In this document: in pieces, positions 6,385 through 27,458 of the stretch
Numbering within the stretch: the first letter of the stretch is position 1
How the letters are laid out: every line of letters starts with the position of its first letter
DNA from: Syntrophorhabdaceae bacterium
GTDB taxonomy: Bacteria; Desulfobacterota; Syntrophorhabdia; Syntrophorhabdales; Syntrophorhabdaceae
Length of the DNA stretch: 64,000 nt
Reading direction: 5' to 3'
NCBI GenBank assembly: GCA_017992765.1
Contig: JAGOOA010000001.1
Location: forward strand, 31,961 to 95,960
Program-made: the position numbers and the translations under genes
Notes under the pieces: model-generated
Told to the model about the DNA's origin: nothing
The model's input: only the letters and a program-made list of their open reading frames with translations
The model's database searches: none

Positions 6385-8868
6385 ATGAAAAAGATCACTG
6401 ACATATTCGGCAAAGAATTCGCCATCGGGATGGTCATCATGCTTCTGGCGGTTGCAGCGTATTGGTTCAGGTGGGGCCCTATCGAAGGGCTGGAATACCG
6501 CTTTTACGATTTTGGCGCAAACCTTCGCGCAAAAACCTCCACGGCGCCGTTGGCGATCGTGGCGATCGACGACATAAGCATTGCCAAGATGGGGCGCTGG
6601 CCCTGGCCGAGAAGCTATATAGCCGAGATGATCGATACCCTTAAAAATTACGACGCCAAAGTGATCGGCGTTAACCTCCTCTATTCTGAAAGCGACGCCA
6701 ACCAGGGATTGTGGGAAGTACAGGACATCCTTAAAAAACTCGAAGGCGAGACAGGGCAACTGAAGAATAAGCAGTTTGGCGAGATCTACGGCGCCTTGAA
6801 GGAAGCTGAAAAAAGGCTCGATAATGATGCTGCCTTATCAGCTTCAATGGAAGCAAGCAAAAAGGTTGTTCTCCCCTTCTTCTTCACCCTCAGCTCCATG
6901 CCGGTGAGGGATGAGGTCAAGCTGCCCGAATATCTCAAGAACAATTCCATAGGAGTTACAAACCCGGATCATTTTCTCGGCGCCAGAGAGATCATCCCCC
7001 CGATCGCCGCCTTCGCGTCACATGCCTCTGCGATGGGCCATATCAATGTCGTTCATGACAGCGACAGGGCCGTGCGCGGCGAGCCTCTTTTTGTCAACTT
7101 CGGCAACAGGCTCTTCCCCTCTTTCGGCATGCAGCTTGCCCTCCGGTACCTCAACTATGACCTCAAAGATGCGACCATCTCGAACTCGATACGGATCAAG
7201 AACATCACTATCCCGACCTACGGAAAGAACACGATGCTTGTAAGCTTCAATAAAGGATTTCCTGTATACTCCTTCGTGGACATCATCGACAACAAGGTGC
7301 CCGGGGTGCAGTTCAAGAACAGGATCGTCATCATCGCACCCCATGCCACAGGGATGGGCACAACCTTCATTACGCCGATGGGCCCGAACATACCTTCATG
7401 GGTCCTCGTTGCCAATGTGATAGACAACATACTCCTCAACAATCATATTGTGCGCCTTTCCTGGGCCTTCTACCTTGAGCTCGCGGTCCTGATCATCTTC
7501 GGATTGTTCCTCGCCCTCGTTTTGCCAAGGATCCATGCAGGGATAACCGCCGTCATATCGGCGGCGCTTTTCCTCGGATGGTCGGCCGTCGGCTGGTTTC
7601 TTCTTGTGCAGTACGGATACTGGTTCAAGGTCATGTACCCGGCATTTCTCCTTGTCGTCGGCTACATCGTGACCGTTTCTTCCCGGTACCTCTTTACGGA
7701 AAGGGCCAAAGAGCGCGTCGAGGCGGACAGCGTTGAAACGAACAAGATGCTCGGGCTTTCTTTCCAGGGCCAGGGCATGCTCGACATGGCCTTTGAAAAA
7801 TTCAGAAAGTGCCCTGTTGAGGACGAATCGGTGAAGGAGCTCGTCTACAACCTCGGCCTCGACTTTGAGAGAAAACGGCAGTTCAACAAGGCCGTTGCCG
7901 CATATGAGCATATTATGCAGGCAGGCGAGTTCAAGGACATTGGGGAAAGGATCGGCAAGCTTAAGTCGGTCGGCCAGACGGTGATATTCGGCCCGTCAGG
8001 GGGGAGAAAGGATGCCACCGTCCTCATCGACGGGGCCGAGACAAAACCCACCCTTGGACGCTACGAGATCATGAAAGAGCTGGGGCGTGGCGCAATGGGA
8101 ACGGTCTACCTTGGCAAAGACCCCAGGATCAACAGAGAGGTGGCTATCAAGACGCTGCGATACGATGATTTCGAGGAAGACCAGGTAGCGGAGCTGAAGC
8201 AGAGGTTCTTCCGCGAGGCAGAAGCAGCGGGCAAGCTCTCGCACCCCAATATCGTTACCATATACGATGTGGGCGAGGATTACGAGATCGCCTACATGGC
8301 GATGGAGCTCCTCGACGGCTCCGACCTTGCAAAATACACGCAGAAGGATAGCCTTCTCCCCCTGAAAGAAGTCACAAGGATCATATCATCCGTCTCTTCG
8401 GCCCTCGATTATGCGCACGAGAACGGCGTTGTTCACCGGGACATCAAGCCTGCGAATATCATGATACTCAAGAACGGGGAGGTTAAGGTTGCCGATTTCG
8501 GCATTGCGAGGGTCATGGCAACATCGAGGACGCAGACAGGGGTAGTAATGGGCACGCCGAGCTACATGTCGCCGGAGCAGATTGCCGGGCAGAAGGTAGA
8601 CGGACGCTCGGACCTTTTCTCCCTCGGCGTCGTCTTCTTTGAGCTTCTTACAGGAGAAAAGCCCTTCGGCGGGGACAGCATCACAACCCTCATGTACAAT
8701 ATTACCAATTCGCCTCCTCCTCCATTGAAGGATATCGCCCCTGCCGTGCCTGAGTTCTGCGAATCCATCATCGTGCGGCTACTCGCCAAGGAAAAAGATA
8801 ACCGGTACCAGCACGGCAAAGAGCTGGCAAATGACATCGAAAGATATATGGAGAGCTTCGGGGGATAA
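6385..8868 (+). CDS. CHASE2 sensor Ser/Thr protein kinase
   Basis: Membrane receptor kinase of the Hanks type. An N-terminal membrane segment (about 13-28) precedes an extracytoplasmic CHASE2 domain (about 35-335, with the characteristic RWPWPR). Three membrane helices follow (about 350-445), then a short TPR-like stretch (about 460-525). The cytosolic kinase domain (about 555-825) has the glycine loop GRGAMG (567-572), VAIK with Lys589, catalytic HRDIK (Asp686) and DFG (704-706), so it should be active. The ligand is unknown. It is followed after 2 bases by a PP2C phosphatase and then an FHA protein, a classical phospho-Ser/Thr circuit. A second CHASE2 protein, a cyclase, lies about 4 kb downstream. 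Confidence 0.92.
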   Translation: MKKITDIFGKEFAIGMVIMLLAVAAYWFRWGPIEGLEYRFYDFGANLRAKTSTAPLAIVAIDDISIAKMGRWPWPRSYIAEMIDTLKNYDAKVIGVNLLYSESDANQGLWEVQDILKKLEGETGQLKNKQFGEIYGALKEAEKRLDNDAALSASMEASKKVVLPFFFTLSSMPVRDEVKLPEYLKNNSIGVTNPDHFLGAREIIPPIAAFASHASAMGHINVVHDSDRAVRGEPLFVNFGNRLFPSFGMQLALRYLNYDLKDATISNSIRIKNITIPTYGKNTMLVSFNKGFPVYSFVDIIDNKVPGVQFKNRIVIIAPHATGMGTTFITPMGPNIPSWVLVANVIDNILLNNHIVRLSWAFYLELAVLIIFGLFLALVLPRIHAGITAVISAALFLGWSAVGWFLLVQYGYWFKVMYPAFLLVVGYIVTVSSRYLFTERAKERVEADSVETNKMLGLSFQGQGMLDMAFEKFRKCPVEDESVKELVYNLGLDFERKRQFNKAVAAYEHIMQAGEFKDIGERIGKLKSVGQTVIFGPSGGRKDATVLIDGAETKPTLGRYEIMKELGRGAMGTVYLGKDPRINREVAIKTLRYDDFEEDQVAELKQRFFREAEAAGKLSHPNIVTIYDVGEDYEIAYMAMELLDGSDLAKYTQKDSLLPLKEVTRIISSVSSALDYAHENGVVHRDIKPANIMILKNGEVKVADFGIARVMATSRTQTGVVMGTPSYMSPEQIAGQKVDGRSDLFSLGVVFFELLTGEKPFGGDSITTLMYNITNSPPPPLKDIAPAVPEFCESIIVRLLAKEKDNRYQHGKELANDIERYMESFGG

Positions 8869-8870
8869 GA

Positions 8871-9680
8871 ATGGGATTCGTCGTAAGCGGAAAGACAGAC
8901 ATAGGTGTCGTACGCCAGAACAACGAAGATAACCTTTATATTTCCCAAGATGACGGGCTTCTGCTCGTGGCAGACGGCATGGGGGGGCATGCGTCAGGAG
9001 AGGTGGCCAGCAAGATCACCGTTGATATCATGCGGGACTATTTCAGCGGCGTGAAGGAAGGTCGTCAGCTTCAGATAGGGCCTTACCAGGAGGACCTGAC
9101 AGAGCCGACAAACAGGCTGGGCTCGGCGATACGCCTTGCCAACCAGGCGATCTATGAGGCAGCGCAAGGCAATCCCCTGTGGCACGGCATGGGCACCACG
9201 ATCGCGGCGGTCCTGATCACGGGCAACAGGCTCAGCATCGCCCACGTGGGCGACAGCCGCGTCTACCTCATCAGGGAAGGCAGCATGGAGCAGCTTACCG
9301 ACGACCACTCCTTCGTATCGGAGCAGGTAAAGCGGGAGATCATCTCAAAGGAGCAGGCAAAGGCGTCAGAGATGAAGAATGTCCTCACGAGGGCCCTCGG
9401 CGTTCATCCTGAGGTCGAGGTCGATCTTGAAGAATTGAGCCTTCTCGACGGCGACATGCTGGTCCTCTGCACTGACGGCCTTACCGGGATGGTCGATGAC
9501 GACGAGATATTTGCCATCATCAATACGCTGCGTGATCCTGCGGTTGCATGCGAGGACCTTATTGCCCGCGCCAATCAGAACGGAGGCAAGGACAACGTCA
9601 CCGTTGTTGTTGCTGAGATCGAAAAGAAAAAAGGATGGTTCTACCGCTTATTACATTTTAAAGAATGGTTCAGGAGGTGA
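8871..9680 (+). CDS. PP2C-family Ser/Thr protein phosphatase
   Basis: Metal-dependent phosphatase, 269 residues, likely reversing the upstream kinase. PP2C motifs are all present: RQNNEDN, LLVADGMGGHASGEVAS, HVGDSRVYLIR, CTDGLTGMVDDDE and GGKDNVTVVV. They supply the metal-binding aspartates. No membrane segment is present, so it is cytosolic. Its start follows the kinase stop by 2 bases and its stop overlaps the ribosome site of the FHA gene, so the three proteins are translated from one message. Confidence 0.93.
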   Translation: MGFVVSGKTDIGVVRQNNEDNLYISQDDGLLLVADGMGGHASGEVASKITVDIMRDYFSGVKEGRQLQIGPYQEDLTEPTNRLGSAIRLANQAIYEAAQGNPLWHGMGTTIAAVLITGNRLSIAHVGDSRVYLIREGSMEQLTDDHSFVSEQVKREIISKEQAKASEMKNVLTRALGVHPEVEVDLEELSLLDGDMLVLCTDGLTGMVDDDEIFAIINTLRDPAVACEDLIARANQNGGKDNVTVVVAEIEKKKGWFYRLLHFKEWFRR

Positions 9681-9683
9681 CCT

Positions 9684-10376
9684 ATGACAAAGATTCTGCT
9701 CAAATTCAAGGATGCTGTTATTAAGGAGCTAAAGCTTGAGCAGGAGACGTACACCATCGGGAGAAAGGATACGAACGATATTGTTGTTGACAACCTCGCC
9801 GTTTCCGGATCGCACGCCAGGCTGCTCAAAGAAGGCGATGCATACATCATCGAGGATCTGAACAGCACCAACGGCACGTTCGTGAACGGCAGGAAGATTG
9901 CCAAGCAGCCGCTCAAGAACGGTGATGTCGTGCTCATTGGCAGCCACACCATCGAGTTCATGACCGATGTGAAGCCGGCAGAGGGCACAAAGACTGACAT
10001 CCGCTCCCGCTCCATGGATGAGACGATACTCTTAAGCCCCAAAGACCAGGAAAAGATCATCACACAAACGGAAAAGCTGGAGGTCCTCGGAGGGCTCCTC
10101 GTCATCGAAGGTTCTTCCGAGCAAAAGGAATACCTGCTCAAGGAGAGGATCACCACCATCGGCAAGGACGACAGCGCATTGATCCGCCTGAAGGGCCTTT
10201 TTGCCCCCAAGGTGGCCGCCCTGATAAACAGGAGAAAAGAGGGATATTTCATCACCCCATCCGGCGGGAAGGAGATCAAGGTCAACGGCAGCAAGGTCGA
10301 CCAGCGGCACGACCTGAAAGATGGCGATATTATCGAGGTTGCGGGAATAAAGATGCAGTTCTTTGTGAAGGAATGA
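9684..10376 (+). CDS. Tandem FHA-domain protein
   Basis: 230-residue cytosolic phosphothreonine-binding protein. FHA domain 1 (about 20-95) has the conserved core: TIGRKDTNDI, SGSHARL and NSTNGTFVNG. A second, divergent FHA-like fold (about 130-230) keeps TIGKDD and VNGSKV but lacks the SxxH motif, so it may not bind phosphopeptide. It is probably the effector or adaptor of the upstream kinase. AGGAGGTGA overlaps the phosphatase stop and sets the start. The gene ends inside a 124-bp palindromic element that may terminate the operon. Confidence 0.9.
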   Translation: MTKILLKFKDAVIKELKLEQETYTIGRKDTNDIVVDNLAVSGSHARLLKEGDAYIIEDLNSTNGTFVNGRKIAKQPLKNGDVVLIGSHTIEFMTDVKPAEGTKTDIRSRSMDETILLSPKDQEKIITQTEKLEVLGGLLVIEGSSEQKEYLLKERITTIGKDDSALIRLKGLFAPKVAALINRRKEGYFITPSGGKEIKVNGSKVDQRHDLKDGDIIEVAGIKMQFFVKE

Positions 10377-13161: not shown

Positions 13162-15120
13162 ATGAAAAAAGTACTCGTTCCGACGCTTATCGGTATTGGA
13201 TTGACGCTTCTTTTCTCCCTGCTGGCGATCATACGGTTCGTCCCTTTTGAGCGCCTCGAACTTCTCCTCTATGACATACGGTACAGCATTCACGGCAAGA
13301 CAACACCGCCCAAGGAAGTAGTGATATTGGGCATCGACGACAGAAGCCTCGAAAAATACGGCAGATGGCCATGGGATAGAAGGAAGGTAGCCACCATCAT
13401 CGACAAGCTAAGCAGGATGGGGGCAAAGGTGGTCCTCGTAGATATCATCTTCAGCGAGCCCTCAAAGGACGACGATATCCTTGCCAAGTCGATCAAGAGG
13501 GCCGGGAACGTGATCCTCCCTGTTGTGTTTGACTTCAAGGGCGAGCCCAGGATAATACAGGACGACACCCTTTTCGATAATGCAATACCTATGATCCGGA
13601 AGATGGATAATTTCAAGATATTCCCGCCGCTGAGCGCAAGCAGCATCCTCCTGCCCGTCAAAAAGCTTTCGCAGAGCGCGAAGGCGCTTGCCTATATCAA
13701 TATGTTCCCTGATAAGGACGGCGTGCTGAGGTGGGAAGCCCTGTCCATTGAATATAACGGCGAGATGTACCCTTCCATTGACCTCCAGGCCGCAAGGCTT
13801 TATCGCGACCTCCCAAACGAGGCGCTGACCCTCCAGGCAGCGGAAGGAATACAGCTCGGCGACAACTTCATACCCACTGATTTCTGGGGAAGGATACTGA
13901 TCCACTACTATGGTCCGGAAAGGACCATCCCGTCAATCTCTGTTGCAGACCTCCTTGAGAACAAGGTGGAACCATCCATGATCAAGGACAGGGTCGTTCT
14001 TTTGGGCGCGACGGCCGTTGGCATATATGATCTCAGGGTTACCCCAACGTCGCCGGCTATGCCGGGGATCGAAAAACACGCAAACGTCGTGGCATCCATA
14101 TTGAACAACCAATTCATCTCCAAGCTCAAAAACATCTGGAACGTCTTGATCGTTCTTATATCAGGCATCCTCTTTTCTCTTATTATCGTGAGGATCAAGG
14201 CTATCGTCGGCGCGGTCTTCGCATTCGGCTTCATCGCGATACTTTACGGGATCGGCAATTACCTCTTCTTCTCGAAGGGGCTCTGGATGGACCTGAGCTA
14301 TTCAGGGAATAATATCCTCATCACCTATTTTGTTATCACCGCTTACAGGTATGCCACCGAGGAAAGGTATGCCAGGCAGATACGGGGCATGTTCTCAAGC
14401 TACGTAACAGAGAAGGTCGTCAACGAGCTCATCAAGAACCCTGAGCTTGCAAAGCTCGGCGGCGAGAGAAGAGAGGTAACCGTCCTCTTCTCCGATGTCC
14501 GGGGCTTCACGACATTCTCTGAAAAACATTCCCCGGAACAGGTCGTTGCCATCCTCAACGAGTACCTTGGAGAGATGACCCACATCATCTTTCAATGGGA
14601 CGGTACCCTCGATAAATTTGTCGGCGACGAGATCGTCGCCTTCTGGGGCGCGCCTATACCGCAGGAAAAACATGCCGAGCTTGCCATCAAGTGTGCCCTT
14701 CACATGACGCAGAGACTTACAGATCTCCAGGAAAAGTGGAGGTCAGAGGGAAAGGTGCCCCTCGCGGCAGGCTTCGGCCTCAACACGGGGGAGGTTATCG
14801 TCGGGAACATCGGCGCTGAAGGGAAGAAGATGGACTATACGGTCATCGGCGACAACGTGAACCTTGGCGCCCGCGTGGAGGGGCTCACGAGGAAGTACGA
14901 CGCCGACATCATCATCACGCAAGCAACATTGGACAAGATACGGGACCTTCTCGTTGGCGGCGACCTCGGCCATCTGAAGGTAACGGGGCTCGATATGGTG
15001 GCGGTAAAGGGAAAGGCGGAACCGGTGTGCATCTACGGCATATCATCGATGCCCCCTGGCGAGAAATCTGTAATCATCGAGTGCACGGTCACGGAAGTAA
15101 CGCAGATGACGGAAAAATAA
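13162..15120 (+). CDS. CHASE2 sensor adenylate cyclase (class III)
   Basis: Membrane cyclase making cAMP from ATP. A first membrane helix (about 6-24) is followed by an extracytoplasmic CHASE2 domain (about 35-325, with GRWPWDRR), three membrane helices (about 330-400), and a cytosolic class III cyclase domain (about 435-610). Metal-binding aspartates are Asp445 (LFSDVRGFT) and Asp489 (DKFVGDE). Transition-state residues Asn567 and Arg571 are present. Lys485 and Thr560 occupy the base-recognition positions and point to ATP rather than GTP. The catalytic set is complete, so it is predicted active as a homodimer. Its sensor half is paralogous to that of the kinase at 6385, so both may respond to related signals. 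Confidence 0.92.
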   Translation: MKKVLVPTLIGIGLTLLFSLLAIIRFVPFERLELLLYDIRYSIHGKTTPPKEVVILGIDDRSLEKYGRWPWDRRKVATIIDKLSRMGAKVVLVDIIFSEPSKDDDILAKSIKRAGNVILPVVFDFKGEPRIIQDDTLFDNAIPMIRKMDNFKIFPPLSASSILLPVKKLSQSAKALAYINMFPDKDGVLRWEALSIEYNGEMYPSIDLQAARLYRDLPNEALTLQAAEGIQLGDNFIPTDFWGRILIHYYGPERTIPSISVADLLENKVEPSMIKDRVVLLGATAVGIYDLRVTPTSPAMPGIEKHANVVASILNNQFISKLKNIWNVLIVLISGILFSLIIVRIKAIVGAVFAFGFIAILYGIGNYLFFSKGLWMDLSYSGNNILITYFVITAYRYATEERYARQIRGMFSSYVTEKVVNELIKNPELAKLGGERREVTVLFSDVRGFTTFSEKHSPEQVVAILNEYLGEMTHIIFQWDGTLDKFVGDEIVAFWGAPIPQEKHAELAIKCALHMTQRLTDLQEKWRSEGKVPLAAGFGLNTGEVIVGNIGAEGKKMDYTVIGDNVNLGARVEGLTRKYDADIIITQATLDKIRDLLVGGDLGHLKVTGLDMVAVKGKAEPVCIYGISSMPPGEKSVIIECTVTEVTQMTEK

Positions 15121-15304: not shown

Positions 15305-15820
15305 CTATTTTATCTGTTGTATTATCTTATTCGTTATATCCACCGTGTCCTTAAAGTATGCAACGCCGGCGGCGCTTTTTTCGAAGATCACCGTGTAGCC
15401 TTCCTTCTCTCCTATGTTCTTTACAACCCCGCTGATCATGCCGAGGGCCTTCTGCGCGAGCTGCGTGTCAAGTTTTCGCACCTCGATCTCGAAATCTTCC
15501 CGGAGCCTTCTGATGTCTCTCGCATCGTTTGCAAGCCTTTCTTCAAGCGCCCTGCGCTCATTAACAGGGAGCTTCTCGCCTTCCTTTCTCAGCTTCTCTT
15601 CGGTCGCCTTGGCGGATTCCTCCCTGTCCCTGAGCGGTTTCCGCTTTGCCTCGATCTGCTTCATCAGGTCCTGCCTGTATCCTTCGAACGTCTTCGATTC
15701 CCGCATTACCTTCTGGACCTCGAAAACCCCGATCTTCGCCGCCTGTGCGGAGACATCCTGGATGCCCATAAAACATATAATAAAAAATACCGACACACCC
15801 AACACGAACAAACGTTTCAT
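15305..15820 (-). CDS. Periplasmic chaperone OmpH/Skp family
   Basis: 171 residues with a signal peptide (LFVLGVSVFFIICFMG, cleavage near DVSAQA). The mature protein opens with KIGVFEVQKVM, the beta-strand that starts Skp-type proteins. A long charged coiled-coil (about 45-130) forms the tentacles, and the C-terminal strand region ends the fold. It should trimerise and carry unfolded outer-membrane proteins across the periplasm. Start ATG 15820 is chosen over a more distal codon because GGAGGG lies just upstream and the signal peptide begins there. bamA and lpxD, common neighbours of this gene, are not present. Confidence 0.87.
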   Translation of the reverse strand: MKRLFVLGVSVFFIICFMGIQDVSAQAAKIGVFEVQKVMRESKTFEGYRQDLMKQIEAKRKPLRDREESAKATEEKLRKEGEKLPVNERRALEERLANDARDIRRLREDFEIEVRKLDTQLAQKALGMISGVVKNIGEKEGYTVIFEKSAAGVAYFKDTVDITNKIIQQIK

Positions 15821-15914
15821 TCGATCCCTCCGTGAAATTTTATCGCGATCTTTATACTGCTTGTTTATCATATTTGCCTGAATAATTCACGAGCTTTTTC
15901 AATCAGGCATAAAA

Positions 15915-15983: not shown

Positions 15984-16011
15984 GTGAGCTATGAGCCATG
16001 AACTATGAACT
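15984..16011. repeat. Heptad array, ATGAGCC family
   Basis: Units GTGAGCT ATGAGCC ATGAACT ATGAACT overlap the stop codon of the giant minus-strand gene. A related GTGAGCC ATGAGTT pair occurs near 39232. Confidence 0.7.
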
Positions 16012-19000
16012 ACTTCGCCACCCCTGCGGCGGTGCCTGAGATCGTGCCCGTGCCGGAGGTCGCGCCCGTGCCCGCAGCGGCGCCATTGAATGTTGTTGAG
16101 CCGTTAAAACCACCGGTGCCGCTCACGCTGCCAAGCCATTTGCCGTTGCCGCCCGGGTTCCAGTTCTTGAAAGCAAAGTCCGCACTTATTCCCGGTACAC
16201 TGCCGGTCAGCCCAATGTTGGTATTCAATGTCGGTGGCCCAGTATAGGTACCGGTCACGCTTCCTGTTGCCCAAGCCGTGGCCGGCCCACCTGCGGTAAG
16301 CGCGAAGAACTTGACATTATTCATTCCAAGGCTCGAGAAGCCATTTCCGGCCCCTGTGAGGTTCACGTTCCCCACCTCAACGCACGGTATATGCATCTGT
16401 GTGAGCTTGTTCCTTCCTGCCTCTGTCGCCGCCAGTTCAAGGAACTTGTTCGTCTCGACCCAACTGCCGATGCCGACCGCCATGTATGTGCTGGGATCGA
16501 AGGTGCCCAGTACCCTGCCGGAGAGCACGCCCGTGCCGGTGATGTCCTCTATGCTTGCCCAGTAGCCGACGGCATTGCCTTCGAACTTTTTGTTCTGCCA
16601 TGGACCACCACCGGAAATAAGAACACCCATATCATTAGTCGTCGAGGCCGCACCTTTAACCTCAAACTGCCAATTACTTGTACCGCCGGACGGGTCATAA
16701 TAGGAACCGTAGAATTTTGTCGCCCAGAGACCGGCGTATGGCACATCGGATATCCAGAAGCTCTCCGCCCATTTTGTATCGCTCGCCGACGGGGTTATGT
16801 ATCCTGAGCCGCCGAAGTTGCCTCCGCTCGTCGCGGGATTGTAATAAAAGATATGACTGTATATGCTGGAGGTAAGGTTCGCCGGCGCGATCGCCGTTGT
16901 GCCGAGCTCCACCGCGTACCATTCGCCGTCCGCCTGCCACTGCGCGTTGTTGGGGTCGAACCAGCCCCAGTCGGGGTTGTCCCCGACATCCCCGAAGTGT
17001 CCGAAGAGCCCGCTGACCTTCCCTGTGGGGCTGATAGCAAGCCCGCCCACGTATCCGCCAACGTTTTCTCCTGCAAAAACTTCATAATACCGCTGGATCC
17101 CGGACCATATACCCCAGTATGCCCCGCCGTCCAATGTGGTATTCGTGCTGTTCGTATAATTATAAGAAAAAAGCTCGCCGCTGAAGATATGGTTCTTATC
17201 TGGATACGCGGGGCCCGTGCGCACATCCGAGTTGTTCTTGTAGATACCGATCATGCTTATATCAAGGGGGTTGCTCTCGGATGATGTCCAGAGAGTGAGC
17301 GGCCCGCTGCCGTCGAAGACGCCCTTGAAATATCCATCATCCACAAGGCTTGTCCCGTTATAGTATTGCAGCTTCGTCTTGTTGGAAGAATTCGGGGTGA
17401 TCCACGACATATACCAGGAAGGAAAGAACGAGCCGGCAAATTGGCCGCCAAAGGTGCCTGACGTGGTGGCCAGGCCTGTAAACTGGCCTGCCCCGTAACC
17501 GTCCAGGTTGCCCTGGATATATGAACCGTCGACAGCGATCGCCCCCGAGCCCCAGAATTCGCCGATCCAGTTGTCTGTGCCGCTGCTGTCGCTGTGGGCT
17601 GCCTGCGCGATCCACAAGGACCCGAAGAATGTCTCCCCGGGGTTCGTGACAACGATGTTCCCGATATAATCGATCTGCTGCCCGCTGTAGGCCCCAGAGA
17701 TCGAGTTCGAGGCTGCGGTCTTGTGCGCAAACGATGTAGGAGGGGTAGCATAGGAGTAGATGTTGATCGGCAGTGTCACGTTCGTGCCCGGAAGGGACGG
17801 CTGTGAGCCGGAAAGTGTTACCGTTGTCGTTAGCTCGCTGGGGAAGCCGAGGGCTGCAAGCGCCTGCCTGCCTTCGGCTGTGCCCGCAAGGTTCATGTAT
17901 ATCGGGGTGCCGAACCAGGCGCCCATAGAGAAGGCGCTGAATGCCCCTTCGCTGTCGTTGTATGCCCCCTTCGTCTGCCCTGCCAAAAGGGCGGTGCGTC
18001 CTGAGCGCCAGTTCGCCCAGTATCCGTAGGTCTCTATGCTTTCAAGCTCGCCGTCCGACCATGTCCCGTAGCTTTCCATTTTCAGGTAGCGGGTCAGATA
18101 AAACGGCGACGCGTTCGTCCATATCTGTTTGCTGCCAAAATGATAACCGGTCGGCGAGATGGACGGATCGTACGCGCCGAGGGAGTTCGTCTTCCAGAGA
18201 CCGAAACCGTATGTCGTGTTATAGGGTTCTGTGAAGGAGAGGATCTCGGTCTTGTCCCACCTCTCGCCCATCTCCCCTAATTTCTTATAGTTCGCATCGA
18301 AGAAACCGCCCTCGCTGCTTGTGTCTCCGTAAGGAGGATAATCGCCCCAGTCCGTCGTCTTCGGCCCGGTCGACATCTGGGTGTATGCAACAAGGTCCTT
18401 TGGCGCGAAATCCACGCCTGTGCCGAGCTGTGCCCTTTTGATCGTCCCGCTCCCCTCGAAGACCATGCTCTCCGGATATCCCGTGCCGGGGATGCTGGCG
18501 TAAAGGACGCCCGTGTTGCTGCTTCCGTCGACGTACATCATATAGGACCAGAAATCTATCGCGTCCGTCGTCGCGCCGGGGATGATGGTAGCGGCTGCGA
18601 ATCCCGTGTATGCGCCGCCGTCGTATGTCGTGTTCGTGCCGTCTATGCGGTTGCTCGAAACGAACGTTCTCTGCATAGGCGTATACCATATATGATTCAG
18701 CACAGGATCGCCGGTCACGTACTCGCCTATTATAGAGGCATTGACGGACGTACTCCCGCCGAAGAGGGGATTCGTCCCGCCCATGGTGAACCACATGTGC
18801 CCGTCCTGTGTGTCGTATGTTCCATCAGGATTGCTCCCGTAATACACGTAGTTCACGAAGCCGCTCTGGAACTGGAGCGCGCTGCCGCTGGACCACGTAC
18901 CGAATGTGATCGCCTGATAGGTATCGCTGTCGATGGTGCCGAGGAAATTTCCGTCAAAGGTGCCCGTCGTGGTGTGGCCCATGTATGTCCCCGATTCGGT

Positions 19001-22000
19001 GCCGGTAACCTTTACGCCGTCCCCATCAACGGTGCCGGAGGTATCTACGATATAGAAAGCCCCCTGCCCGTTGCCGGAGCCTATACCTGTTGTGGTCCAT
19101 CCGCCGGGTACATCGGCGGCGATCGTCGTGGCAAGATCGCCTGTCCATGGGCTGGATGTGCCGCCAGTGTAATACCAGTAGCTTCTCCCGCGTCCGTAGG
19201 GATCGCCGTATGAGAAGTTTTGCTGTCCAATGTATCCATTTGCGTTATATGTCCTTTCATACCCTATACCCGTACCCGGGTTGCGGTACGAAACATATCC
19301 CAGCTGGCTTCTTCCGGTTGGATTTGTCGAGTAATCGTTAAAATAGGAATATCCGTAGTAGCCGTTGTTGGTATCGCTGTAATAACGGGTACCGGTCATG
19401 GTGTCCAGGTTGTAGAAACCGAACGTTCCCCTCCCGCCGGTCACCGCGCTCCAGGTCGTCCTGTTGTTGGGATTGCTGTACCACCCGCCTGACTTCGCCA
19501 TGTAGACGCCCCAGCCCTGACCGGGTATGTTCATAGTATCAAAATCGGTCGTGCCGCTTATATATCCTTCTCCAGGCCCAAAAGATCCGTAGACGAAGAG
19601 GTTTGTCGTGTCAGGTGCATAGTACCTCTTGCGGACGATCTCGTAGAAGTTCGTAGGCGTGATGGCGCCTACCCCGGGGATGCTGCCCACGTCGGATGTC
19701 TTCTGGGTGAGAGTCACTGTCCCATCGAGCTCGAAGGCGCCCACATACCAATAGGACGAACCTGTCCAGTCGCCCGCGAAATACCCCGCTGCGTAGGGCG
19801 ATGAGGCGGATGGCGCGATATAGACGCCGTACCAGCTCCCCAGCATGGACCGTACACCGGTGCCGCCGCAGGGGTAGAGGATGCCGCCCAGGTATGACCA
19901 GTACGCGCCGCCATCGTAGGTCCTATATTGTCCCGTTGCGGGACTTGCGCTGTACATGCGCTGGCCCCAGATATGGCCGTAGGAATTGGGCATGCCATGG
20001 ATCCCGATGGCGGTGAATGCCGGGGTTCCCCCCGCGAAGAGGGAGCCCGTGCCGCCGAACTTTGCATTCATAAAGACGTCGTCCGTCAATGCTGTGCCGT
20101 TGAAATACTCGAAGTAGGGGGCGAAGGAGCTCGCGAAATACAGTTGGGAGCCTTCCCATACGCCGATGTTCGCCGCCTGCCATTTGCCCGCCTCGGCGCC
20201 GTAGGAGCCGATGAGGTCCCCGGTCATGGGACCCATCTTCGTCCAGGTGATGAACCTGCCCGCCACGTCGCCGGAGATCGTATCACCGGTCCACGTGCCG
20301 TTGGAGATGCTCGTCAGGTAATACCCATAATCGTCATAAAAAGCTGCCTGTGGAGTGCTGTAATAGGCGCCGAAGGTGCCGGAACCGCCGACCGTGCCGG
20401 TCCATCCCGCAGGCGGCGTGCCTGAAACGGTGCCGCCGTGGCTCATCGTATAGATGCCCCATTTTTCTGCGGTATGCGCGGTCGTGTTATAGAGGGCCAT
20501 GGTGTAGTTCCATGCGTTGCCTGTGCTCATGATATTCCAGCCCGTGCCCGTGCCCCACAGCGATTTCGGCTGGGTTACATTGTTCCCTACCCACAGGGGA
20601 GGAACAGAGGACGATGATGCAGGCGGAAAGCTCCACATGGAGTATGTGAGAGATTCAGGCGCTATGCCGATATCGGTGTTCTTCGGCGTCGCAACGAGGT
20701 TCCCCGACATCTCCGCCATGTAGATATCCTCATAGGCAGTGCCGCTTAAGTTCCCCCTCAGGAACCCTGCCGTGTACTTGCCGCCCGACAGCGGGCTGAT
20801 GTAGATGGCGACTTCCCTTCCATAGAGGTCATCGCCCACAACGCGGCCCGCGAAGAATCCATTATATGAGCCGCCATCGTAAGTTGTGTATGTATTGTTC
20901 TTGTAGTTATAGCTGTAGATGTTCGCATTCCATATCTTCGGCAGCCCGTCTCCGGAGCTGTACTTGCTGATCATCGTGGTGGCCACCGGGCTTCCTGTCC
21001 AGAGCGTGCCCGTCCCGCCCATTAACCCGTACAGCCAGCCGTCGGATGTATCCCACGCGGTGGAGTAATGGAATAGCCCAACATCGACATCGCTTACAAA
21101 TGTTAGGTCCGTCCCCGTCCATGTGCCGAGGGCAACTGCCTTCCATAAACCTGTATACTCATAGGTGCCGTAGACATCGCCGTCCATGGTGCCAAGCCTC
21201 GTATAGGTAAGGTATTTTCCCGTAAGAGTACCATAGAGTATGCCCTCAGTGTCTGTGGCGCCTGCCGGTACCGTACCGGTGATGCTCGCAAGCCAGTAGC
21301 CCCAATCTCCCCATACGGTCTCTGATGCGTCCTTGTATGCCCCAAAGGTGCCCGTTGAGCCCACCGTAGCACCCCACGAGGTGGGAACCGTCGCAAGGGT
21401 ATCAAAATGGCCGAGCATGGGGAGGCCGTAGATGCCCCAAGGCTCGGTAGCGATCGCGTAGGTGGCCCCGAGATAGGAGTTGTCTTCGCCTCCGGTTATT
21501 GCCGCGCCGTTGTTGAACGTCCCGGAGAGATATGCCCCGGTGCCGTCAAGGGACCCCGTGTTGATATTGTACGCAAGTCCCGAGGCGCTGATGCCTATAT
21601 CTGTTGACTTTTCCGTCCTGTTGGCAAGTCCGCTCATCTCGAACATGCCCATTTCGTATATATCGCCGCTCAGGTATGCCTGCAAGAAGCCTGCCTTCGG
21701 CGTTGCCGAGTTGTCGATATAGAGTGCGACGAACTTGCCTTCGAGGGTCTTCGCGCTCACTATATCCTTAAAGGCGTACTCGTTCCCTCCGGCAAGGCCG
21801 TAATAGGCCCCCCCGTCATAGGTCGTATATTGTTCGGTAAGGACATTGTAGCTGACGATGGGGGTAGGGGTATACCAGAGGCAGGATTCACCCACAAAAC
21901 CCATTATTGTGATGGGGATATTGCTTCCGCTCCAGAGGCTCGCCGTCCCTCCGAGATAGCCTTCCAGGGCCGAGAGGTAACCGAAATATATGCCGTCATC

Positions 22001-24739
22001 GTTCACAGCGTCGAGCATATCCGCATAGAATTCACTAAAGAACTTAAGATCCGTGCCGTTGTAATAGCTGCCTATCACCTGGCCTATCCATTCGCCGAAG
22101 TCCCCCTCGCTCGAATTGATGCCCGAGAACCTTCCCTCTGCGTCATAGAGACGGAGCGGCGTCATCACCTTCCCCGCCGCGCTGCCCGTTATCTCCCCTG
22201 CATCGGTCCAGGTACCGCTCGCCGTGAGGAGCCAGTACCCTATCCACCCGCTGTCGTTATCAAAAACGCCGAAGCCGCCGAGCTTTGCGCTCCACGAAGG
22301 GTTTCCTGTCGGTTTGTAATCGTAGTAATTGTAGCTGTCATCGTAGCCGAACTTTATATTGAAGATGCCGAATGGCAGGGACTGCGAGGAGGTATAGAGG
22401 AACTTGACATCGCCGCCGGCCTCTCCATAGATGCTTCCCGTGCCGTTGAAGTCGCCCGATAACCCGCCCCATACGAATCCGCCGCCATAATACAGATCGT
22501 AGGGGTCGAGGACCATCGCATAAGGCGTCGGGGTGAGCGTGCCGCCCGCCCTCCACATCTTGGAGCCCGTGGAGAAGGGATAGTAGGAGCCGGAAACATC
22601 GCTTCTCATGACTCCAGTGGTCACATATCCGTTGCCGTCGGGCGTGCTTACGTATACCGCCCGCAATGTTCCGTCAGATATGGCGCCGGCGGTCGAGGCA
22701 TCTCCGCCCTTCCATATGGCGCCGACGAACCCTGCCATCGACCCCATTACTTCCGAGGGGACACTTTCTGTGGTGGTAGCATAGATATAGGTATTCATAA
22801 TATAATGGGGACTGTCGGCCGGGTCCAGGTCATATGTACCCATGGCGGTAAAGCTCGCGGGGCTTGTCCACGGGGCGGCCGTCCCGCCAAGATAACCGTA
22901 GTCCTCTCCCGCAAGCATCATCATGCCGTTATAATTGTAATAGAGGGAGTAGCCGTCGCCGGGCCCCGCGCCTCCCCATTCGCCAAAGAAGCTCGCGGGG
23001 GTGCTTACGCCGTTGCCGGCGCCGGTCATCCTGAAGTATTCACCGATAGGGCAATAGGTGCCGAGATATCTCATATCGTACCAGCCGAGGTAGGGCCCGA
23101 TCTGCGGGTCAATGCCGATGAAATCGAGGTTCGCACCCAACGTGAACTTGTAGTTTGTCGCATCATGGGTATAGGAGAGTGGCCCGATCCCGTATTGTTC
23201 CGCTCCTGCGTATCCGAGATAGGGGAGTGATGGAGTTTCCGTTGTGCCAAAGCCTCCCTTGTAGATCTCTGAGGTGAAGGCGACCTTTCTGCCTTCATTG
23301 GTGACGCGGTATCCACCTAAACCATTTCTGCTTTCAGGGTAAATCACGAGCTGTCCGTCACCGATCACAAATGGGAGAGTGTTCGGAAAGAGCTGAGGTG
23401 GTGCAAAACCCGGCGTTGTAGAGGAAAAGGCCTCAAGGAGTGTCTGTCCCTCTTCCGGTACAACGGTGATGGTTCCCACGGAGCCGCTTCTTGCAAGGCT
23501 GCCGCTAAAGGAAAAGGTGGTGCCGTCAAACGTTCCCGGCGCATCACCTGTGAGGAAGTAGAGGCTTCCGTCCTCCAGGTAAAGAAAAGAGATGCGGTTC
23601 AGCCATGAGCCCTGCACGCCCGGCGTATAGCCGATGAAGGCGCCGCCCGTGTCGGAGGTTCCTGTTGCGGTGCCCGAATGCGTTGTGCCCGTGTCTCCGG
23701 TCACTGTTCCCGATGCAGATATGGTGCCCGTACCGCTGGTAGGTATATTGGCGGTGAGGGTGGTATCCGATAGAGTTCCGCCCCCTTCAAAGGGCATCCC
23801 TCCCAATGTTCCCGTAAGGTTTATTCCTTCCTGCGGCGGCGCTGGCGGCGCTGGCGGCGGCGGAGGCGGTGGTGGCGGCGGTTCGGGAACCACCACAACC
23901 ACTACTTTCGGGGGCTCAGGCGGCGGACTCCCTTGTCCTCCGTCCCCGGTCCCCATGTCACTTGTCCCAGTGCCTGTCCCTGCGGTAGTACCGGTCCCTG
24001 TTCCTCCACCTGCGCCGGTCCCTGTTCCGGTGCCGGTGCCTGTTCCGGTGCCGGAGCCTTCTCCGGCGCCACCGCCGGTCCCTGTTGGCGTTACCTGCTG
24101 GAGGGCGTTGTTGATCTGGTTCTGGGTCACCTTCCTCGGGGCTGTCGGCGGGGTGTTCGCCGAGGGAACGGCCGAGGTGAAGCCCGCGGTAACGGCGGCA
24201 ACGATCTGCGGGAGGCTTGGGTTGTAGAGGTATCCCTGCCCGGTGACGAAGATGACCGTCGTTGCGCCGCCGATAAGGGTGACGAGCATGTTGGTGCCCC
24301 TGATCCCGGCTACGGCGTTAGGGGTATGGACCTCAAAGCGGTTGCCTTCCGCAAGGGCCGCTGCCCGCTTGATGAAGTCCTCGCCGGCCACTGCCTGCAC
24401 TCTCCCTCTGTGTAGGCGGATGACGCCGGTGCTTTTCTCTCCCTGGACCATGTACTCCTTGATCTCCACGCGGGACGACTGGCCGATCCGCAGGACGTTC
24501 TTGTTCACGAAGGTGATCTCCGCCTTACTCCTGCTCTTCGCCCGATAGATGTCGCCGATGTCGACGGGGGCGCCGAGGGAGACGGGGGTCGCGACGTTCT
24601 TCCCCGCCTTGAGGACGTCCACGCGTCCCTCGATAGCGGTAATCTTGCCTACGGGAGCGGCTAGGGCCATTCCGCCGGCGATAAAGGTTATGACGAGAAA
24701 CGACCAGAAGACCTTGTTAAGGGAGATGCGAGTCTTCAT
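16010..24739 (-). CDS. Giant secreted FecR-domain repeat protein, 2909 residues
   Basis: An N-terminal signal peptide (about 1-28, cleavage after ALA) is not a lipobox, so the protein is exported and not lipidated. A FecR domain follows (about 30-170; GKITAIEGRVDVLK, HTPNAVAGIRGTN). Next come a glycine-threonine stretch (about 220-270) and a polyproline segment (about 288-305), presumably flexible spacers. The remaining 2600 residues are beta-rich and dominated by Gly, Thr, Ser, Tyr and Trp. They contain irregular repeats of roughly 300-500 residues, each marked by a TYDGGAY-type motif (near 970, 1280, 1605, 2035 and 2533) and GTFGAY/GYW signatures. No autotransporter barrel, LPXTG or S-layer anchor was seen. 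It is probably a surface or extracellular structural or adhesive protein. It has its own strong promoter and terminator. The TPR-barrel protein encoded just upstream may export it. Confidence 0.85.
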   Translation of the reverse strand: MKTRISLNKVFWSFLVITFIAGGMALAAPVGKITAIEGRVDVLKAGKNVATPVSLGAPVDIGDIYRAKSRSKAEITFVNKNVLRIGQSSRVEIKEYMVQGEKSTGVIRLHRGRVQAVAGEDFIKRAAALAEGNRFEVHTPNAVAGIRGTNMLVTLIGGATTVIFVTGQGYLYNPSLPQIVAAVTAGFTSAVPSANTPPTAPRKVTQNQINNALQQVTPTGTGGGAGEGSGTGTGTGTGTGTGAGGGTGTGTTAGTGTGTSDMGTGDGGQGSPPPEPPKVVVVVVPEPPPPPPPPPPAPPAPPQEGINLTGTLGGMPFEGGGTLSDTTLTANIPTSGTGTISASGTVTGDTGTTHSGTATGTSDTGGAFIGYTPGVQGSWLNRISFLYLEDGSLYFLTGDAPGTFDGTTFSFSGSLARSGSVGTITVVPEEGQTLLEAFSSTTPGFAPPQLFPNTLPFVIGDGQLVIYPESRNGLGGYRVTNEGRKVAFTSEIYKGGFGTTETPSLPYLGYAGAEQYGIGPLSYTHDATNYKFTLGANLDFIGIDPQIGPYLGWYDMRYLGTYCPIGEYFRMTGAGNGVSTPASFFGEWGGAGPGDGYSLYYNYNGMMMLAGEDYGYLGGTAAPWTSPASFTAMGTYDLDPADSPHYIMNTYIYATTTESVPSEVMGSMAGFVGAIWKGGDASTAGAISDGTLRAVYVSTPDGNGYVTTGVMRSDVSGSYYPFSTGSKMWRAGGTLTPTPYAMVLDPYDLYYGGGFVWGGLSGDFNGTGSIYGEAGGDVKFLYTSSQSLPFGIFNIKFGYDDSYNYYDYKPTGNPSWSAKLGGFGVFDNDSGWIGYWLLTASGTWTDAGEITGSAAGKVMTPLRLYDAEGRFSGINSSEGDFGEWIGQVIGSYYNGTDLKFFSEFYADMLDAVNDDGIYFGYLSALEGYLGGTASLWSGSNIPITIMGFVGESCLWYTPTPIVSYNVLTEQYTTYDGGAYYGLAGGNEYAFKDIVSAKTLEGKFVALYIDNSATPKAGFLQAYLSGDIYEMGMFEMSGLANRTEKSTDIGISASGLAYNINTGSLDGTGAYLSGTFNNGAAITGGEDNSYLGATYAIATEPWGIYGLPMLGHFDTLATVPTSWGATVGSTGTFGAYKDASETVWGDWGYWLASITGTVPAGATDTEGILYGTLTGKYLTYTRLGTMDGDVYGTYEYTGLWKAVALGTWTGTDLTFVSDVDVGLFHYSTAWDTSDGWLYGLMGGTGTLWTGSPVATTMISKYSSGDGLPKIWNANIYSYNYKNNTYTTYDGGSYNGFFAGRVVGDDLYGREVAIYISPLSGGKYTAGFLRGNLSGTAYEDIYMAEMSGNLVATPKNTDIGIAPESLTYSMWSFPPASSSSVPPLWVGNNVTQPKSLWGTGTGWNIMSTGNAWNYTMALYNTTAHTAEKWGIYTMSHGGTVSGTPPAGWTGTVGGSGTFGAYYSTPQAAFYDDYGYYLTSISNGTWTGDTISGDVAGRFITWTKMGPMTGDLIGSYGAEAGKWQAANIGVWEGSQLYFASSFAPYFEYFNGTALTDDVFMNAKFGGTGSLFAGGTPAFTAIGIHGMPNSYGHIWGQRMYSASPATGQYRTYDGGAYWSYLGGILYPCGGTGVRSMLGSWYGVYIAPSASSPYAAGYFAGDWTGSSYWYVGAFELDGTVTLTQKTSDVGSIPGVGAITPTNFYEIVRKRYYAPDTTNLFVYGSFGPGEGYISGTTDFDTMNIPGQGWGVYMAKSGGWYSNPNNRTTWSAVTGGRGTFGFYNLDTMTGTRYYSDTNNGYYGYSYFNDYSTNPTGRSQLGYVSYRNPGTGIGYERTYNANGYIGQQNFSYGDPYGRGRSYWYYTGGTSSPWTGDLATTIAADVPGGWTTTGIGSGNGQGAFYIVDTSGTVDGDGVKVTGTESGTYMGHTTTGTFDGNFLGTIDSDTYQAITFGTWSSGSALQFQSGFVNYVYYGSNPDGTYDTQDGHMWFTMGGTNPLFGGSTSVNASIIGEYVTGDPVLNHIWYTPMQRTFVSSNRIDGTNTTYDGGAYTGFAAATIIPGATTDAIDFWSYMMYVDGSSNTGVLYASIPGTGYPESMVFEGSGTIKRAQLGTGVDFAPKDLVAYTQMSTGPKTTDWGDYPPYGDTSSEGGFFDANYKKLGEMGERWDKTEILSFTEPYNTTYGFGLWKTNSLGAYDPSISPTGYHFGSKQIWTNASPFYLTRYLKMESYGTWSDGELESIETYGYWANWRSGRTALLAGQTKGAYNDSEGAFSAFSMGAWFGTPIYMNLAGTAEGRQALAALGFPSELTTTVTLSGSQPSLPGTNVTLPINIYSYATPPTSFAHKTAASNSISGAYSGQQIDYIGNIVVTNPGETFFGSLWIAQAAHSDSSGTDNWIGEFWGSGAIAVDGSYIQGNLDGYGAGQFTGLATTSGTFGGQFAGSFFPSWYMSWITPNSSNKTKLQYYNGTSLVDDGYFKGVFDGSGPLTLWTSSESNPLDISMIGIYKNNSDVRTGPAYPDKNHIFSGELFSYNYTNSTNTTLDGGAYWGIWSGIQRYYEVFAGENVGGYVGGLAISPTGKVSGLFGHFGDVGDNPDWGWFDPNNAQWQADGEWYAVELGTTAIAPANLTSSIYSHIFYYNPATSGGNFGGSGYITPSASDTKWAESFWISDVPYAGLWATKFYGSYYDPSGGTSNWQFEVKGAASTTNDMGVLISGGGPWQNKKFEGNAVGYWASIEDITGTGVLSGRVLGTFDPSTYMAVGIGSWVETNKFLELAATEAGRNKLTQMHIPCVEVGNVNLTGAGNGFSSLGMNNVKFFALTAGGPATAWATGSVTGTYTGPPTLNTNIGLTGSVPGISADFAFKNWNPGGNGKWLGSVSGTGGFNGSTTFNGAAAGTGATSGTGTISGTAAGVAK

Positions 24740-24922
24740 GATTGGTACCTCTCTTTATTGAATTTTATTTTTTTCATAATAGACCTATGTGAAAAACAGC
24801 GTGGAAGCAGAGAAATTTCCAAGTGTTTGGATTTATTATCCCGGATGTGAGTCTGCAAGTGTCCCACCACTGTTGACTGCTTTTAATTTCTACAGCAAAT
24901 ACAAGGTATTACGTATTACAAT

Positions 24923-24950
24923 ATTATACCAACCATTTTTAAAATGTCAA
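24923..24950 (-). promoter_or_regulatory. Strong promoter of the giant FecR-protein gene
   Basis: On the minus strand TTGACA (24950-24945), a 16-bp spacer and a perfect TATAAT (24928-24923) predict a start near 24916. This gives an untranslated leader of about 175 bases before the GAGAGGT ribosome site and ATG at 24739. The leader is long enough for regulation, but no known riboswitch was recognised in it. Confidence 0.75.
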
Positions 24951-24995
24951 GGGTAATTAGGGGTGCCCATGAACAGATCAACCATAAACTTTTTA

Positions 24996-26546
24996 TTAAT
25001 AACGGTACTCAATCCCTAATGAGAATATCTCGCGCGTGTAGTCATAGGTCGCTATATTGCTTTTATCCCTGATATAGGTATACTGGGCCGTGATGTCGGT
25101 GCTTTTCCCCAGTTCATAGATAAGCCCGAGGGATGTGTTATAGGTGTCGTTTCTCCGCGTCATACCGTCGAATGTGGCATTAGGGAAGACATATTTCGTA
25201 AATGCCGCTTCGCTTGAGACCTGCAGCTTGAGGGGCTTCCACCAGAGGGGGTAGAGGAGGTTCATTCCCCACTTGTGTTCTTTATTCGCCCAGTTATCGC
25301 CTATCGTATTATCCTGCCCGTAGGTATATTTCAGGTTGATGAAACCCCTTCCGTCATAAAAGAAGTAGGTATACCCTATGCTCGCATTGTAAAGCCTGCC
25401 GTCTCTGTCCTCCGGGGCGGTCAAGGGCGCCACAAAATAATATTTTTCCGTGTAGCCCATCGAAAATTCCGCGATGCTGTTCTGGCTTACCATATATCTC
25501 AATGTAGGCGCAACGCTGTAGTACCGCATATATTTTGTGTCGCTGTACCAGCTCACGCTTTGGGTAAAATCGGTGCCCTTGTCGCGCTGCAGCCAGTTAT
25601 AGAGTATCGTTACCGGCATACTTAGAGAAAATTTTTCAAAGTTGTACCCGGGGATGAAGCTCAAGGTATTCGTCATGCTGTTATAGTCATCGCGCTGGAA
25701 ATATCTGTCGGCATAGACAGAGTACTGGATGGTCATATTATAAGGTTTTTTAAAAGAAAACGGGAAGGTATATGCGATCCTCGCCGTCATGTTCATTGCA
25801 TAGTCGCTCTCGTTCGAGATCACATCGGCGACGGGGCCTCCCCCCGGTTTTGCCACCAGGTTGGTATCGTATTTATAAGCAAGCCCTACGCTGAACCTCC
25901 AGGGCCTCTCCCGTTCGAATTTTTCCGCCAGCGCCTTGTCGTAATCCTTTGCCAGCGTCGCCATATCGGTTGTGGGGTCGACTCTTATCGCTGCCTTGAA
26001 GCGGTTCTGGGCTTCTCTATATTGCCCGGCCTGCATATTTGCGCTCGCTATCTGGAACTCGGCAAGCTGCGCCAATGATGGGTCGAGTTCCTTTGCCTTC
26101 TCAAAGCCCGCGATCGCCTCGGTATATTTCTTGTCTTTCAAATACACGAGCCCTTTCAGGAACTGGATGCGCGCAGGCTGGATCCCTTCCTTTTCCCCCA
26201 CCTCGAGCCACTCCTTTGCCTCTTTAATATTGTCCGTCTGGTAGAGCACATCGACGAGCTCCACGAGCGCCTCTTTTATCCGGGGGGTAAAGGTCACCGC
26301 GTCTCTCAGGTAGGGGATGGACTCCTTGTAAAGCTCCATGATCTTATAGGTGAGGCCTGTATAGAACGCCACGGTGCTCGATGTGGGCTCAGCCTTCCTG
26401 GCCTCGAGGAAATAAACAAGGGCCTCCTCGTAATTCTCATCGCGGAATTCTTTCATACCCATCTCGAATTGCGACTGGGCGCCTGCAAAACCGGCGCATA
26501 AGGTCAAGGCAAATACACCTATAAGCAATACGGCATACCATTTCAT
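24996..26546 (-). CDS. TPR plus outer-membrane beta-barrel protein, Slam-like
   Basis: 516 residues. A signal peptide (about 1-23, ending GFAGAQ) is followed by about five TPR-like helical hairpins (about 25-205). The C-terminal region (about 215-516) is an alternating beta-strand region rich in aromatic residues that ends in EYRY, as expected for an outer-membrane barrel. Length and order (periplasmic TPR, then about 300 residues of barrel) match the Slam/DUF560 surface-protein translocons, but no family signature was confirmed. Start ATG 26546 is preferred because AGGGGTGA precedes it and the signal peptide starts there. The giant secreted protein is encoded next on the same strand under its own promoter, which makes it the obvious candidate client. 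Confidence 0.8.
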   Translation of the reverse strand: MKWYAVLLIGVFALTLCAGFAGAQSQFEMGMKEFRDENYEEALVYFLEARKAEPTSSTVAFYTGLTYKIMELYKESIPYLRDAVTFTPRIKEALVELVDVLYQTDNIKEAKEWLEVGEKEGIQPARIQFLKGLVYLKDKKYTEAIAGFEKAKELDPSLAQLAEFQIASANMQAGQYREAQNRFKAAIRVDPTTDMATLAKDYDKALAEKFERERPWRFSVGLAYKYDTNLVAKPGGGPVADVISNESDYAMNMTARIAYTFPFSFKKPYNMTIQYSVYADRYFQRDDYNSMTNTLSFIPGYNFEKFSLSMPVTILYNWLQRDKGTDFTQSVSWYSDTKYMRYYSVAPTLRYMVSQNSIAEFSMGYTEKYYFVAPLTAPEDRDGRLYNASIGYTYFFYDGRGFINLKYTYGQDNTIGDNWANKEHKWGMNLLYPLWWKPLKLQVSSEAAFTKYVFPNATFDGMTRRNDTYNTSLGLIYELGKSTDITAQYTYIRDKSNIATYDYTREIFSLGIEYRY

Positions 26547-26600: not shown

Positions 26601-27365
26601 CTATACGGTTATCGTCGAACCCTGCTTGAGCAATTTAATATTGTCCCTTTTGAGGGCATCCAGCTCCTGATGTATCTCTTCGAGAAAGATAGGCTTTATA
26701 TGCGTCACATAGATCGGCATCGTACCAAGCTTATACCTGTCAATATGCTCGGCAAGCATGGCAGTTGTCATATGTCCTGATATCTTCGCCAGCCTGCTCA
26801 ACCTGTTCGGAAAGGAGACATCCGATATGATGAACTCTATGCCTTTTGTCCTGCTGGCCACCTCCCAGAACCTCTTCGTGGGTCCCGTATCAGAGGTAAA
26901 CATAAAACCCTTCTTGCCGTCCTTCACAATATAGCCTACCGTAAAAACCGTGTGCGTCATCAAGACAGGCTCCACGGTGATGCTATTGATCGAGGATACC
27001 TGCTCCATCGGTATCTCGTGAGGCTTGATAATCCCCTTGTGCTCCGATGGTATAACGGTAAAATCGGGCCATATTAAATTGTTAAGAAGGTTTTGCGATA
27101 TGATCTCAAGTATCTGCTTTACGCTGATCAGCTCAATTGAGTAGTCGCCCATCATGGCAAGCTCATCAACAAAAGGAAAAAGGCCCTTTACGTGATCGAT
27201 ATGCGTATGGGTTATCAACACCTGCCTGATCTTTTTCAAGGCTTCGTCATCAAGGGCCTCGGTAACCGTTCCCGCGTCGAGAAGTATCGTATCGTTGATG
27301 AGAAAGGATGTTGCCCGGTATTTCCCTATGTAATTACCGTAACAGCCAAGTATCTTGATCTTCAT
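26601..27365 (-). CDS. Metallo-beta-lactamase-fold hydrolase, class II cAMP phosphodiesterase-like
   Basis: 254 residues, cytosolic. The metal-binding motif THTHIDHVKG (near residue 70) matches the HxHxDH centre of class II cyclic-nucleotide phosphodiesterases. Further ligands are likely in MTHTVFTVGY, FTSDTGPT and GHMTT. Breakdown of cAMP is plausible because an adenylate cyclase is encoded in this window, but ribonuclease Z-like or other phosphodiester substrates are possible. ATG 27365 is chosen because a promoter -10 box lies 11 bases upstream and the fold starts there (MKIKILGCYGNYIG). There is no ribosome-binding site. Confidence 0.75.
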   Translation of the reverse strand: MKIKILGCYGNYIGKYRATSFLINDTILLDAGTVTEALDDEALKKIRQVLITHTHIDHVKGLFPFVDELAMMGDYSIELISVKQILEIISQNLLNNLIWPDFTVIPSEHKGIIKPHEIPMEQVSSINSITVEPVLMTHTVFTVGYIVKDGKKGFMFTSDTGPTKRFWEVASRTKGIEFIISDVSFPNRLSRLAKISGHMTTAMLAEHIDRYKLGTMPIYVTHIKPIFLEEIHQELDALKRDNIKLLKQGSTITV

Positions 27366-27376
27366 CTTTAGTATGA

Positions 27377-27406
27377 ATTGTATTAAAACATTTGCTTTTA
27401 TGTCAA
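27377..27406 (-). promoter_or_regulatory. Candidate promoter of the phosphodiesterase-like gene
   Basis: On the minus strand TTGACA (27406-27401), an 18-bp spacer and TACAAT (27382-27377) lie 11 bases before the ATG. A leader of only a few bases is predicted. Confidence 0.5.
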
Positions 27407-27458
27407 GGAGTTTTGTGCAATTTTGCATTACTTTACCTTATTGTTTCACATTAATCCC

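Follow-up and report, generated by a model that had tools for sequence, protein, structure and literature searches.

Slam proteins of the DUF560 family (PF04575, SlipAM), the outer-membrane proteins of type XI secretion (T11SS), combine a signal peptide, periplasmic TPRs, and a C-terminal barrel of about 300 residues. Their cargo, including TbpB, fHbp, hemophilins, and Pls-like proteins, is encoded beside the outer-membrane protein and joins a variable N-terminus to a conserved C-terminal beta domain, and the TbpB_B_D domain marks such cargo (PMC8406197, PMC12282271). The periplasmic chaperone Skp is required for Slam-dependent translocation of TbpB (PMC9090332). Soluble and repeat-rich cargo is also known (PMC12282271), and an earlier sequence-only reading of the DNA discussed here was too narrow in taking known Slam clients to be small lipoproteins or hemophilins. 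For most DUF560/T11SS outer-membrane proteins no cargo is known; 9 of the 10 published clusters, mainly environmental, are uncharacterized (PMC8406197, PMC12282271). An outer-membrane barrel and an exported FecR-domain protein also occur together in FecA-FecR-FecI surface signaling. Elsewhere, exported proteins adjoin CHASE2 signaling proteins: a LysM-FecR protein and a CHASE2 histidine kinase share an operon that regulates biofilm (PMC5192318), and MtxA is clustered with a CHASE2 cyclase (PMC4439547).

The window, a 64,000-nucleotide stretch of DNA from a Syntrophorhabdaceae bacterium, holds an operon that resembles each of these systems in part. Its close relatives with names are Deltaproteobacteria MAGs and a Syntrophorhabdus MAG, in keeping with a probable origin in the Syntrophorhabdia. 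A TPR-barrel gene lies just upstream of the gene for a giant FecR exoprotein. Our best reading is that the two proteins form a divergent T11SS-like pair, for export or display, with a link to cyclic-nucleotide signaling. We give a probability of roughly 55% to its core, namely that a divergent member of the DUF560/SlipAM (Slam, type XI secretion) family, or a close sister, exports or displays the adjoining FecR exoprotein. A literature search found no paper joining DUF560 with FecR.

The operon and its neighbors

The two proteins that the sequence-only reading had described are both present as stated (Table 1). The barrel open reading frame is taken from the ATG common to its orthologues; the mechanical frame begins 16 codons upstream, at 26594. 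In the window, the MBL-fold hydrolase, barrel protein, FecR giant, and Skp are encoded consecutively, and convergent with them runs the CHASE2 cyclase gene. RNA elements were absent near the operon besides one tRNA.

Table 1. Coordinates of the operon, its protein domains, and neighboring genes in the window
Feature	Position	Strand	Evidence or remark
CHASE2 + class III nucleotide cyclase	13162..15120	+	PF05226 214 bits, PF00211 78 bits; convergent
Skp/OmpH periplasmic chaperone	15305..15871	-	PF03938 79 bits
Giant FecR exoprotein, 2,909 aa	16010..24739	-	Sec-type signal peptide, without lipobox cysteine
Conserved C-terminal domain, giant residues 2600-2909	16013..16942	-	Repeat-unit homologue, ends SGTAAGVAK
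Diverged ~360-aa beta repeat array, giant residues about 311-2599	16943..23809	-	Profile matches; TYDGGAY marks
G/T- then P-rich linker, giant residues about 206-310	23810..24124	-	Composition in 200-aa blocks and sequence
FecR domain, giant residues 63-166	24242..24553	-	PF04773 36.5 bits (cut-off 24)
TPR + outer-membrane barrel protein, 516 aa	24996..26546	-	Signal peptide
Barrel domain, residues 208-516	24999..25925	-	Related to SlipAM/DUF560-positive barrels
MBL-fold hydrolase	26601..27428	-	PF12706 50.6 bits, PF02112 30.1 bits (cut-off 23.7)

The barrel protein and its family

A Pfam scan found TPRs and a C-terminal barrel in the barrel protein, and its N-terminus is hydrophobic by eye. 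The sequence-only reading had assigned it to Slam. Taken alone, the window copy gives a different family: its best Pfam match is PF10082 (BBP2_2, 30 bits), EpsL and BcsC match weakly and partially, and PF04575 gives no match at E<=1. The family as a whole tells otherwise. TPR families occur in all 24 members scanned, 10 of the 24 match PF04575 at E<=1, and the best orthologue scores 45.1 bits (cut-off 22) over positions 2-288 of 288. When profiles are compared with hhalign, the barrel family aligns with SlipAM-positive barrels at E 8e-26 over 281 columns, against 3.8e-7 over 149 columns for genuine BBP2_2 and 5e-4 for DUF2860, and an unrelated beta profile used as a control gives no match. The SlipAM-type set was partly chosen by the same synteny, which makes this comparison a test of family relation and not an independent discovery. 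By this comparison the barrel family is related to SlipAM/DUF560 barrels over the whole domain, and the Slam idea is right at the family level and unproven for the window copy. The T11SS barrel has 14 strands; a model of the barrel discussed here, built from five sequences and of low confidence (pLDDT 60), puts its number loosely at about 14-15, and almost all Foldseek matches of this model are to TPRs. In one related locus (L009:2440-4002), stops and runs of N interrupt both the barrel gene and the FecR N-terminus, from either decay or assembly error.

Pairing across the phylum

Barrel orthologues are found in 35 of 60 relatives, where the FecR gene nearly always adjoins, and barrel profile matches occur in 83 of 395 genomes of the phylum. 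At 46 of 56 barrel loci, the next gene downstream, in the same orientation and usually less than 100 bases away, encodes a FecR domain, repeat unit, or C-terminal domain; these counts describe the barrel family and are not independent trials because the loci are kin by descent and were picked by search rank. The remaining loci comprise two with Skp and a second gene in between, two at a contig edge, and six that do not fit. The pairing that the sequence-only reading had proposed to survey is therefore real, and the arrangement agrees with the T11SS trait of cargo encoded beside its outer-membrane protein. The gene found between besides Skp is a lytic transglycosylase in the one locus scanned with Pfam (SLT, L190:9626-11059), and a lytic transglycosylase likewise stands between Skp and the FecR giant at L191:4345-5775; these enzymes may open the wall for export. 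Many partners of the barrel are plain FecR proteins of 270-300 residues without an obvious cargo domain (L202, L204, L208). Short pairs with longer FecR proteins occur too, of 753 residues at L077 and 898 at L189. One locus has a Crp-family cyclic-nucleotide-binding regulator directly after the barrel in place of FecR (L084:13402-14082). An apparent FecR-CHASE2-cyclase fusion (L250) was discarded since it spans a run of N.

Three of the strongest PF04575 matches in the phylum (L222, L223, L224) lie in sister operons with the order barrel, FecR protein, CHASE2 cyclase, and their FecR proteins, 869-939 residues long, end in PF01298 (TbpB_B_D) at 26.8-35.5 bits, above the Pfam cut-off. Local profiles add TbpB_B_D endings on FecR proteins at five further loci (L243, L245, L251, L255, L229). 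A search of the phylum placed PF01298 over the cut-off in 13 genomes, and most of these places are beside a barrel match. In the sister operons, a FecR protein next to a DUF560 barrel thus has the architecture of cargo.

The FecR exoprotein

The giant consists of a signal peptide, a FecR domain, a G/P-rich linker, and beta repeats that include a conserved C-terminal copy. FecR is the sole Pfam domain in it, and the same scan did not turn up domains of autotransporters, TpsB, or type I secretion. Read from the sequence, neither the giant nor the barrel protein has a convincing lipobox at its N-terminus, which supports the proposal of a non-lipidated giant as partner of a Slam-related barrel. 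Compared with a congener, the giant has a dN/dS of 0.24 overall and 0.12-0.28 by segment; it is under purifying selection along its whole length, and the barrel protein, at 0.07-0.08, is under stronger purifying selection.

About five TYDGGAY-marked repeats had been described. There are indeed five T[YL]DGG[AS]Y-type marks, four found by pattern and one as RTYDGGAY, but the number of repeats is higher. A profile grown from one repeat matches seven stretches plus the C-terminal copy at a spacing of about 300-370 residues, and a more permissive count gives nine units with the C-terminus included. Local self-similarity scores reach 254, against about 70-100 in shuffled controls. The copies are old, as a repeat was looked for at the DNA level and is absent, and positional orthologues of a unit are 86-89% identical whereas different units within one protein are 19-33% identical. 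Across genomes, longer proteins have more units: a 753-residue protein has 2, and the giant, with 2,909 residues, has as many as 9. The predicted model of one unit is all-beta (pLDDT 77, pTM 0.80) and fairly confident, and it matches no PDB structure, so the unit is a candidate, though unproven, new fold. A TbpB-like fold for the unit found no support, with TM scores of about 0.1 and an hhalign probability of 0.6%.

The C-terminal domain is a copy of the repeat unit (profile comparison, probability 99.6%). It is well conserved, including the SGTAAGVAK at its end, and has no Pfam match. A TbpB-like identity for it is unsupported, with an hhalign probability of 0.4% to TbpB-type endings. The giant resembles T11SS cargo in layout and differs from it in this repeat-derived ending, its FecR N-terminus, and not being a lipoprotein. 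The window type of C-terminal domain occurs in 22 of the 395 phylum genomes, all 22 of which also have the barrel (hypergeometric P 1e-16, not corrected for relatedness). At L082:3023-8100, a second barrel paralogue adjoins a 1,135-residue protein with lipase/esterase, Lipase_C, and beta-propeller domains that bears the window's C-terminal domain and no FecR. L188 encodes the FecR protein and the repeat/C-terminal-domain protein separately, in two genes of a single cluster. From these arrangements, the domain behaves like a partner-defining, exchangeable module, and it is possibly a second type of C-terminal export domain. Some proteins with this domain are encoded away from any barrel gene (L090, L093, L094). 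The first of these loci lies in the window's own genome (contig C41, L090:6994-9762) and holds a paralogue with FecR and the C-terminal domain that appears as two open frames of 688 and 923 residues; the other two are related to it and have other neighbor genes in common. At L198:6977-11221, a 1,414-residue SBBP beta-propeller/FG-GAP protein is encoded directly 3' of a short gene for FecR and the C-terminal domain.

Signaling neighbors

The operon departs from both Slam/T11SS and FecA-FecR-FecI in often including a CHASE2 cyclase. Near the 56 barrel loci, a CHASE2 cyclase lies within five genes at 23, an MBL-fold gene at 13, and Skp at 10; the MBL-fold gene is kept upstream of the barrel gene in relatives, and at one locus (L071) a joint duplication has copied the FecR gene along with Skp. 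No FecI-type sigma factor or TonB receptor was found among the neighbors scanned or readable from the list of open reading frames. The sequence-only reading had likewise seen no sigma factor or FecI nearby, but because Skp, the CHASE2 cyclase, and the MBL-fold hydrolase recur, it missed the likely signaling partner and drew the module too small in confining it to a pair. Unlike FecA-FecR-FecI, the pair lacks a TonB receptor, a plug domain, and the architecture of a transmembrane anti-sigma factor, and the output gene would be the CHASE2 cyclase. The recurrence of this cyclase together with the FecR domain suggests signaling, and the MBL-fold hydrolase is a possible class-II cyclic-nucleotide phosphodiesterase. 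The LysM-FecR/CHASE2 and MtxA/CHASE2 systems differ in that neither a Slam-related barrel nor a giant repeat protein is reported in them (PMC5192318, PMC4439547). A second CHASE2 signaling unit lies near the operon on the forward strand (6385-10376), with CHASE2 and a Ser/Thr kinase identified by Pfam and, 3' of the kinase gene, PP2C-type phosphatase-like and FHA-like genes recognized by reading the sequence.

Proposed mechanism and alternatives

We infer from sequence the direction of export, the part of the giant that is recognized, and the coupling of FecR to CHASE2. The giant would cross the inner membrane by Sec export, the neighboring Skp would hold its unfolded chain, and the periplasmic TPRs and barrel would recognize its C-terminal beta domain, so that the repeat array would come to lie in the outer membrane region or outside it. 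As for the N-terminal FecR domain, it would either stay periplasmic as a reporter or leave with the rest of the giant, and it would work with the inner-membrane CHASE2 nucleotide cyclase. The state of the exoprotein would then set the cyclic-nucleotide level, which the MBL-fold enzyme may lower. The barrel homology, the cargo-type endings of the sister FecR proteins, the lipase-propeller swap, and the adjacency of Skp are most simply read as export aided by Skp and the TPR-barrel. Against an export pair stand the missing PF04575 match of the window barrel, a C-terminal domain that is not detectably TbpB-like, a repeat unit with no PDB match, the poor barrel model, small FecR partners with no cargo domain, and C-terminal-domain proteins encoded away from a barrel.

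The system may instead be an envelope sensor in which no protein is exported: the TPR-barrel would be an outer-membrane receptor or scaffold, the FecR protein, having grown larger in this lineage, would relay the signal in the periplasm, and the CHASE2 cyclase would give the output. The frequent cyclase, the tiny FecR proteins that pair with the barrel equally well, the Crp-type regulator that follows one barrel, and the LysM-FecR/CHASE2 kinase system, which regulates biofilm with no such barrel (PMC5192318), all fit this account. Many barrel loci have no CHASE2, however, and the SlipAM kinship, TbpB_B_D endings, lipase-propeller swap, Skp adjacency, and the selective maintenance of a 2,900-residue array would go unexplained, so we regard a pure sensor as on balance unlikely. 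An exopolysaccharide or small-solute porin (EpsL/BcsC/PgaA or BBP2 type) with a wall-associated FecR neighbor is improbable. The BBP2_2, EpsL, and BcsC matches of the window copy speak for it, as does the earlier capture of PgaA homologues by PF04575 (PMC8406197), but BBP2_2 and EpsL align to no more than the C-terminal portion of the barrel, BcsC, PgaA, and EpsL give no full-length match, and the profile comparison favors SlipAM-type barrels. Nor was a polysaccharide synthase found among the annotated window neighbors or the conserved neighbors examined, and the genes in synteny are FecR, Skp, and CHASE2. That the giant surfaces by another route, such as BAM-assisted self-insertion or another secretion system, with the barrel unrelated, we consider very improbable: the C-terminal-domain proteins encoded away from a barrel would suit it, but the giant has none of the secretion domains sought, and among the sampled genomes of the phylum the C-terminal domain never occurs in one that lacks the barrel.

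The T11SS-like export or display pair that we prefer could have arisen with signaling as the older function and the export of large passengers as a later addition, for which the FecR partners of 270-300 residues are the strongest argument. A tentative fuller version would make the operon a secretion-coupled signaling system: the translocon would be type XI-like, the FecR exoprotein would be its cargo, and the FecR domain would be read by the CHASE2 cyclase, turning export or surface engagement into a cyclic-nucleotide signal; the cargo of the window lineage would have grown to nearly 3,000 residues with a new C-terminal export domain. The recurrence of the barrel-FecR pair as an operon across the phylum, often with the cyclase, suggests that protein export has a new branch with ties to signaling. 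It would offer FecR proteins as cognate partners for an environmental DUF560/T11SS branch and, in the literature searched, a first hint of such a system wired to cyclic nucleotides. Small family members of 750-900 residues exist and are well suited to testing.
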